Source of the DNA: a virus
IMG/VR virus record: IMGVR_UViG_3300042261_000331
Span: 1-39,388 of that record
DNA: 39,388 nucleotides
Direction: 5' to 3' (one strand)
The translations under genes were made by a program, and so were the position numbers. Below the pieces are notes generated by a model that had not been told where the DNA came from, searched no databases, and saw only the letters and a list, made by a program, of their open reading frames with translations. This document shows, piece by piece, positions 29,519-30,163 of this stretch. Each line of letters opens with the position of its first letter. Position 1 is the first letter of the stretch.

Positions 29519-29827
29519 ATGAAATCATTATTACCTTATTTAATTAAAGAGGTTAGTAAAAAAGGATTAGATTTTATTAAGAAAAATACTCCAACTAATG
29601 TACCAACTCGACCTAATAAAGAAGATTTTGCAAATGTAGGTAAATATCTTCAGAAACAATATGCTTCTACTGTAAATGGAGACCCAAATAAACTACCTTG
29701 GAAACAATCTACTGGTGATGTTTTAGAATTAGCTAAAGGTGTAGAACGTGGTGTTAATAAAGCTAAAGATGTATACCGTAAGGTTTCTTATTCTATTTCT
29801 CATCCTACTAAACGTCGTGTTAGATAA
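29519..29827 (+). CDS. Last late-operon gene, hypothetical basic protein, 102 aa
   Basis: Strongly basic with KKGLDFIKKNTPTNVPTRP and a C-terminal YSISHPTKRRVR; amphipathic helix at the start (LLPYLIKEVSKKGLDF). It could be a small ejection or DNA-binding protein. A rightward terminator begins 15 bases past its stop. Confidence 0.6.
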   Translation: MKSLLPYLIKEVSKKGLDFIKKNTPTNVPTRPNKEDFANVGKYLQKQYASTVNGDPNKLPWKQSTGDVLELAKGVERGVNKAKDVYRKVSYSISHPTKRRVR

Positions 29828-29945
29828 CTGTTTTTAACTTGCTCTCCCACTTCCCAGTGGTGAGATTTTTTCTTATCCAAAGTTCAACACTGACTGTAGG
29901 CTCTACCATTATAGTAATATAGTATTCCCATTTTGTGTATTTCAT
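29820..29945 (-). CDS. Small protein at the end of the early operon, 41 aa
   Basis: MKYTKWEYYITIMVEPTVS continues to ...KWESKLKTVI. The ATG at 29943-29945 has the AATTATATG context shared by leftward genes, so it is preferred over the longer frame from 30056, which runs through the structured RNA. Beta-rich, no Cys, no known family. It converges on and overlaps the late-operon terminator. Confidence 0.55.
   Translation of the reverse strand: MKYTKWEYYITIMVEPTVSVELWIRKNLTTGKWESKLKTVI
29842..29871 (+). terminator. Intrinsic terminator of the rightward late operon
   Basis: CTC(tc)CCACT pairs with AGTGG(t)GAG around TCCC, followed by A and six T. It lies just after the last plus-strand gene and overlaps the 3' end of the converging leftward gene. 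Confidence 0.8.
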
Positions 29946-29973: not shown

Positions 29974-30138
29974 AGCAGTGGAGTAATGGCAAGGATTTGA
30001 CTCGGGTTCCCAGACTCACCCTGGTACAGCCTAATCTTTCGAACGAGTATAGTCACCTTGCAATATCACAGTCTATGTTTAGTGATTTAGGAGCCTTCTG
30101 ACTAGCGTCTTCTATTCCGCCACATTACTCTCACTGCT
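29974..30138. ncRNA. Structured RNA with interrupted tRNA-Leu-like features
   Basis: A long closing helix joins 29974-29988 and 30123-30138 (7 + 8 bp with one bulged base). Read leftward, GTAATG-TGGCGGAAT-AGA-AGACGC matches the acceptor and D-arm of a bacterial tRNA-Leu. If 30001-30054 (54 bases) is removed, the T-arm becomes CAAGG-TTCAAAT-CCTTG, followed by CCATTAC-T-CCA. The anticodon arm is degenerate, with a TCAGA trace. A plain long hairpin (GCAAGG/CCTTGC plus TGACT/AGTCA) is an alternative fold for the same bases. It is not a normal tRNA; strand and function are unknown. Confidence 0.5.
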
Positions 30139-30141
30139 TGT

Positions 30142-30163
30142 GCCAGTCGTTAAACTGGCTTTT
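30142..30163 (+). terminator. Second rightward terminator
   Basis: gccagt (30142-30147) and actggc (30154-30159) form a 6-bp stem followed by four T, just beyond the structured RNA. It could end a rightward RNA read through from the late operon or catch read-through into the leftward genes. Confidence 0.6.

Follow-up and report, generated by a model that had tools for sequence, protein, structure and literature searches.

A non-decoding, tRNA-Leu-like phage RNA with a hairpin in its T-loop

A tRNA-like element between convergent gene blocks

The window analysed here is a 39,388-nucleotide stretch of a viral genome (IMG/VR record IMGVR_UViG_3300042261_000331), in which the end of a plus-strand block of late genes faces the end of a minus-strand block of early genes. 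Between these convergent blocks, after the last early gene, lies a tRNA-like element on the minus strand, adjoined by two plus-strand terminator-like hairpins. A 41-codon open reading frame without a clear ribosome site follows on the same strand (29820-29942, minus; MKYTKWEYYITIMVEPTVSVELW...), and its product has no homologue among the loci retrieved in this work. Three single-protein scans of IMG/VR found no close relatives of the window phage, and searches of INPHARED with its TerL and DnaB gave relatives only below ~30% identity, and with its portal protein none.

From 30138 down to 29974 on the minus strand, the element has the order AGCAGUGAG-AGUAAUG-UG-GCGGAAUAGAAGACGC-(43 nt)-GCAAGG-UG-(54 nt)-CAAAU-CCUUGC-CAUUACU-CCACUGCU, the core of which is a 7-bp acceptor, a Leu-type D-arm and a 6-bp T-stem, with 54 nt lying within the T-loop. 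The initial annotation had placed these bases correctly and every stem it described is present, including the 15-bp helix that encloses the whole element, which has one bulged A and contributes an extra -31.5 kcal/mol. The features are as follows.

29974-30138, minus: the whole tRNA-like RNA, including the outer helix; fold z of -4.0 on this strand, and family membership
30132-30138, minus: outer helix extension, 5' strand AGCAGUG; outer stems reach past the acceptor in the T-loop-insert subfamily
30130-30131, minus: outer helix detail; A30131 is the bulge and G30130 pairs with C29981
30123-30129, minus: acceptor 5' strand AGUAAUG; 7/7 pairs with 29982-29988, and register tests
30121-30122, minus: UG, counterpart of tRNA positions 8-9; UG in 200/201 members, base 8 being U in 158/158
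30105-30120, minus: Leu-type D-arm GCG-GAAUAGAAGA-CGC; the stem GCG/CGC changes to GUG/CAC in L288, L312 and L313 (and, by reading, L284)
30062-30104, minus: hypervariable domain of 43 nt replacing the anticodon and variable arms; nothing in common with the relatives' sequence, and cassette exchange in relatives
30056-30061, minus: T-stem 5' strand GCAAGG of the 6-bp T-stem; free pairs 94-99% paired in the family
30054-30055, minus: T-loop part 1, U54-G55; identical in every member, but fixed by the search patterns
30000-30053, minus: T-loop hairpin insert of 54 nt, ACUAU-ACUCG ... CGAGU; motif and insertion point common to 47 unique members
30044-30048, minus: insert closing helix, 5' strand ACUCG; covaries in relatives (ACGAG/CUCGU, ACUAG/CUAGU, ACUCU/AGAGU, ACAGG/CCUGU)
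30000-30004, minus: insert closing helix, 3' strand CGAGU; the same covarying pairs
29995-29999, minus: T-loop part 2, CAAAU (positions 56-60); equals the UG|CAAAU of relatives without the insert
29989-29994, minus: T-stem 3' strand CCUUGC; T-stem pairing statistics in the family
29982-29988, minus: acceptor 3' strand CAUUACU; acceptor register tests
29974-29981, minus: outer helix extension, 3' strand CCACUGCU; occupies the place expected for the discriminator and CCA
30142-30163, plus: terminator-like hairpin for plus-strand transcripts; context only

The G+C content of the element is 47%, against ~28% around it, and both strands fold better than 200 shuffled sequences (z of -4.0 on the minus strand and -2.9 on the plus strand). 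Taken with the recurrence of the same covarying design in hundreds of phage loci (see below), the GC island and the fold scores show that the element is more than chance. A plus-strand reading, in which words resembling the R and S segments of a group I intron (AGACU...UAUAGUC) can be picked out, was dropped; the architecture is wrong and the G-U pairs favour the minus strand.

The element has neither the anticodon arm of a tRNA-Leu (a 7-nt loop with a Leu anticodon) nor the discriminator A73 and free CCA end; the base at the discriminator place is a C, paired inside the outer helix. At default settings ARAGORN calls no tRNA gene here, with the insert present or removed, and its tmRNA search finds nothing; when introns and low thresholds were allowed and the insert removed, only spurious low-score folds appeared. 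Rfam 15 gives no match on the element, the yjdF riboswitch and YrlA covariance models included, and permissive thresholds yield chance matches only.

A family of phage RNAs with a constant tRNA-like frame

The first lead to this unannotated RNA family was a weak 22-nt BLAST match. Against INPHARED the element gave only marginal blastn matches (E ~9), four of which aligned with the D-arm and pointed to unannotated sites close to tRNA genes in two unrelated Lactobacillus phages. The Lactobacillus phage sequence is GUGCUUG-UG-GCGGAAUAGUAGACGC-(long interior)-GUAGGG-UGCAAAU-CCCUAC-CAAGCAC, and as a query it recovered the same ends with differing interiors in phages of Lactobacillus, Leuconostoc, Brochothrix and Tenericutes. 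A pattern combining the D-arm with GGTGCAAATCC matched at least 120 IMG/VR contigs and 80 stretches in bacterial and archaeal species genomes, mostly Firmicutes (Bacilli, Clostridia), with others in contigs binned as Methanoperedens, Alphaproteobacteria, Leptospiraceae and further groups. Dozens of cultured phages carry the RNA, including SPP1 (between genes 9 and 11), Enterococcus and Listeria phages, and phiJL-1. The family was collected with exact loop patterns, and the uniformity of the D-loop and T-loop sequences is therefore partly a product of selection. Real tRNA-Leu genes share the D-arm, and intermediates with canonical T-loops also exist. ARAGORN called none of the 120 listed IMG/VR family contigs.

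Members are recognised by a 7-bp acceptor, UG, and a Leu-type D-arm with stem GCG/CGC or GUG/CAC, followed after the interior by a 6-bp T-stem ending GG/CC around a loop UG...CAAAU (UGCAAAU in the family at large). The window fits both halves of this rule, the second as GCAAGG-UG...CAAAU-CCUUGC; one base is missing from its D-loop, as also in L015 and L002, and the GG pair of most members is absent. The acceptor was evaluated in 158 unique loci chosen by D-arm and T-loop only: the heptamer preceding UG pairs with the one that follows the T-stem in 96.5% of cells, against 32-51% in other registers and at most 57% in 1000 partner shuffles, and the loci contain 117 distinct acceptor stems. The D-stem and T-stem covary as well, and the same design is found in hundreds of phage loci. 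As to the refuting conditions named with the initial annotation, ARAGORN at default settings sees no gene once the insert is removed, but the covariation of acceptor, D-stem and T-stem in relatives is strong. Together with a D-arm like that of real phage tRNA-Leu genes, this covariation bears out the earlier view of the element as either a mimic or a phage RNA of tRNA origin.

The interior between D-arm and T-stem ranges from 18 to ~230 nt and is hypervariable throughout the family, so that what had been described as an eroded anticodon arm in the window is a hypervariable domain rather than erosion. The 55-nt member in phiFL2B is without an interior, showing that the elbow half alone persists. 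Among 39 pairs of loci in which both 100-nt flanks are more than 75% identical, 13 have interiors below 65% identity (L115/L120, flanks 98-99% and interior 64%; L056/L166, flanks 90-91% and interior 34%), while in the reverse case 19 pairs have a common interior and unlike flanks; it follows that an interior is transferred or substituted as a single block. The near-identical prophage loci L115/L120, L056/L166 and L094/L130 differ almost solely in the RNA interior, as in a cassette exchange within the RNA gene. A canonical T-arm motif lies inside seven interiors, against 0.26 in shuffles, three of these loci having entered through a pattern that favours the motif; L225, L244, L275, L260 and L028 have complete canonical T-arm hairpins within their interiors, as if remnants of other tRNAs.

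Family RNAs of Firmicutes prophages commonly lie downstream of ArpU/RinA-like late activators and upstream of HNH/TerS/TerL on the same strand (gene names from reading of the sequences, backed by some record annotations), and those of large lytic phages lie among tRNA genes; no universal downstream gene was found in the family loci tested. Several loci hold other RNAs nearby. Just upstream of the tRNA-like RNA in phiJL-1 (L009, 1-534), L010 and L011 is a second tRNA-like sequence of ~60 nt (ATCGCTGTGGGCTAATTGG...GGTTCGAATCCTGCCAGCGAT) with acceptor, D-arm and T-arm and no anticodon arm, which scores 42 bits with the Rfam tRNA model in phiJL-1. Directly 3' of the SPP1 member is a second tRNA-like stretch of 45 nt (ACGGACGGCTGG...GGTTCAATTCCCGGAGTCCGT; L217, ~1610-1660), and in Listeria phage B025 an Rfam mcrA RNA (RF03010) lies ~100 nt downstream of the member (L222, 1275-1325). 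The cyanopodoviruses S-CBP2 and P-SSP7 (L218, L219) contain, at unannotated sites, the 5' half of a tRNA-Leu alone, which in S-CBP2 comes after an annotated integrase; these are probably attachment sites and outside this anticodon-less family.

The family can be compared with several known RNAs. It shares with phage and bacterial tRNA-Leu the D-arm TGGCGGAATAGGTAGACGC, UG at 8-9 and a 7-bp acceptor, but differs in having no anticodon arm, a T-loop that is UGCAAAU or split, a rarely encoded CCA and an A73 that is not universal; its 6-bp T-stem makes a 13-bp stack, unlike that of tRNA-Leu. Like tmRNA (SsrA) it has tRNA-like ends enclosing an internal domain between D- and T-arms, but the D-stem is Leu-type, the size far smaller and the internal domain hypervariable. 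T4 species 1 RNA (rnaC) is also a phage RNA beside tRNAs, with a perfect T-arm CCGGGTTCGAATCCCGG, acceptor-like CGAAACG/CGTTTCG and an odd interior (L216, 609-747); the idea is the same, but its T-loop is canonical, it is without a Leu-type D-arm, and it has no obvious sequence similarity to the family. Non-proteinogenic staphylococcal tRNA-Gly has a G at position 55 (GUGC replacing GTPsiC), a likeness in G55, but these RNAs carry glycine and retain an anticodon arm. Bacterial Y RNA (YrlA) is a tRNA-mimicking non-coding RNA found in phages too; its layout differs from that of the family.

No description of the family was found in the openly licensed (CC) literature searched, although one may exist elsewhere, and a paper on SPP1 relatives that ran both tRNAscan and ARAGORN does not mention the RNA. 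On the basis of Rfam 15, ARAGORN, record annotations and this literature search, the family is a large class of phage RNAs that is widespread, unannotated and apparently undescribed.

The T-loop-insert subfamily

Scanning for the D-arm with a distant CAAATCC identified three contigs with a hairpin in the T-loop, and a subsequent motif scan gave 49 contigs and 47 unique members. In all 47 the T-loop reads U-G-[ACUAU-ACNNG ... NNNGU]-CAAAU, interrupted at one fixed point, and the window has the motif UGACUAUAC-NNG...GUCAAAU, as UGACUAUACUCG...CGAGUCAAAU, together with the covarying closing helix. The three pairs after the C-G pair are paired in 98.6% of cases (shuffle maximum 90%), with the compensating forms GAG/CUC, UCG/CGA (the window), UAG/CUA, UCU/AGA and AGG/CCU. 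Relaxing the C-G pair gave 83 matches and no further real member, so that this pair appears invariant; the search pattern itself dictated GUCAAAU and the remainder of UGACUAUAC. Independently of the insert pattern, the D-arm motif TGGYGGAAW lies within 300 nt upstream in 39/47 members, against 2.6% of controls. Acceptors are 96.7% paired (shuffle maximum 59%) over 36 distinct stems, and the D-stem alternates between GCG/CGC and GUG/CAC. The stems contain seven G-U cells and one A-C cell, indicating the window's minus strand as the RNA strand.

The initial annotation had offered a degenerate split tRNA as one possibility. The fixed site, conserved flanks and covarying closing pairs of the insert in 47 unique members show instead that it is maintained and not decaying. 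The excision that had been proposed, of 30001-30054, does yield CAAGG-TTCAAAT-CCTTG, but the relatives set the insert one base off, at 30000-30053 (ACU...AGU), between U54-G55 and C56; removal of these bases gives CAAGG-UG-CAAAU-CCUUG, the T-arm of the insert-less relative in Brochothrix phage ADU4 (L015). The T...G boundary bases once taken to recall a group I intron fall away, because the corrected insert starts with A and ends with U. A competing hairpin, UGACU/AGUCA, had also been put forward to explain the T-arm bases. The base of the insert does have two competing pairings among the 47 members (ACNNG/NNNGU with probability >0.5 in 30/47, UGAC/GUCA in 14/47), so that this hairpin is possible as a local alternative; the tRNA-like core stays.

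The TerL, portal, capsid, DnaB and YopX proteins of the window are 22-42% identical to proteins on contigs with a T-loop-insert RNA, and no consistent partner gene was found for the subfamily. In L284, L286, L289 and L303 a GroEL-like protein is encoded within 6 kb of the RNA. In L308 (1997-2060) the insert motif occurs a second time inside the insert itself (UGACUAUAC-GA-GUCAA), and L306 and L320 have extra sequence or a hairpin in the D-loop, L320 with two copies of unlike interiors.

Interpretation and alternatives

There is good support for the identity of the element as a tRNA mimic that is conserved and does not decode. The most likely reading, to which we assign a probability of about 0.5, is that it is a phage-encoded, tRNA-Leu-derived RNA that acts in trans. 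The RNA would be made from the minus strand, beyond the last early gene, and would fold as a tRNA elbow, with the acceptor/T-stem stack and the D-loop/T-loop contact kept. The hypervariable domain takes the place of the anticodon and variable arms; in the window copy the T-loop contains a second, hairpin-borne variable domain and the outer stem buries the acceptor end. Judging from the sequences, the elbow probably docks on host machinery that reads tRNA elbows (the ribosome, RNase P or another tRNA-binding protein), and the variable domains may carry a phage-specific activity as decoy, blocker or guide. Against elbow mimicry stand the shortened window D-loop with its missing GG pair and the T-loop insert, which, lying between positions 55 and 56, might block the normal elbow; the rival pairings at the base of the insert and the want of a consistent partner gene in the subfamily also weigh against this reading. 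More tentatively, these RNAs could be phage-wide devices in which a constant elbow chassis engages a common host target and one or two exchangeable cassettes give specificity, perhaps towards other phages or the defences of the host, the T-loop hairpin being the second slot.

Next after the trans-acting mimic, though a good deal less probable, is a cis-acting tRNA-like element within a longer phage transcript, which would have no free 3' end and would affect ribosome loading or RNase processing of its neighbours. The outer stems of the subfamily reach far past the acceptor, with a median extra -17.2 kcal/mol against -5.8 with swapped flanks, a test in which the acceptor was located by its pairing and the flanks were not; the window has such a long stem (>7 bp). 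A Shine-Dalgarno-led open reading frame begins within 130 nt downstream in about a third of members, against 11% at random positions. The yjdF riboswitch provides a precedent, as it has a D-loop/T-loop elbow without a free acceptor end and its tRNA-like fold can raise translation (PMC9142559); the family RNA differs in being Leu-type rather than Lys-type, in not being tied to yjdF and in matching no Rfam model. However, most members have no such reading frame and their downstream genes vary, the window RNA is followed only by its 41-codon frame, and insert-less members end like free tRNAs, often within tRNA clusters, with an extra outer-stem energy (-7.8) close to that with swapped flanks (-7.4).

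It is improbable that the RNA is matured like a tRNA, given CCA and leucylated, to act as a LeuRS sink or as a carrier of Leu that does not decode. LeuRS reads A73 and the tertiary core; the D-arm is identical to that of phage tRNA-Leu, a free acceptor sequence would suit the enzyme, and A73 and U74 each occur in 86/158 insert-less members. But A73 is thus present in just 54%, CCA is encoded in 2/201 members, no long variable arm lies at the usual place, and the window end is a C buried in the 15-bp helix; charging is therefore generally unlikely.

Fainter still is the prospect raised initially, that the T-loop insert is an intron whose splicing rebuilds a normal T-arm. Its exact loss does give back the family T-loop UGCAAAU, and the flanks UGACUAUAC and GUCAAAU look invariant. 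Inserts of 36-61 nt are, however, too short for any known self-splicing intron, and no Rfam intron matches, so that the 54-nt insert of the window, with its A...U ends, gives no sign of a group I intron. The UGAC/GUCA pairing with its AAU bulge resembles an archaeal bulge-helix-bulge, in which a 4-bp helix lies between two 3-nt bulges, but the other bulge is 5 nt, and cuts of that type would misjoin the exons and not restore a T-loop; the closing helix, moreover, covaries like a stable hairpin. The window element requires no intron.

A mere bidirectional hairpin or DNA site where two convergent operons meet is very unlikely: the convergent blocks and adjoining terminators would suit it, but the tRNA-like anatomy and minus-strand G-U bias recur at loci in other contexts, and a terminator has no need of a D-arm. 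A decaying tRNA-Leu pseudogene would explain the missing anticodon arm and the silence of ARAGORN and Rfam, but is scarcely credible, being contradicted by compensatory changes over 36-117 distinct acceptor stems and by an insert conserved in unrelated phages.

Annotation programs thus overlook a tRNA mimic that many phages carry. It is present in hundreds of them, the model phage SPP1 included, and has gone unannotated because tRNA finders depend on an anticodon arm and no Rfam model covers it. Its conserved elbow with a replaced decoding half allows tRNA mimicry by DNA phages to be put to the test, for which SPP1 in Bacillus subtilis is a ready bench system, and it bears on the old question of what stable phage RNAs that do not decode, T4 species 1 among them, are for.
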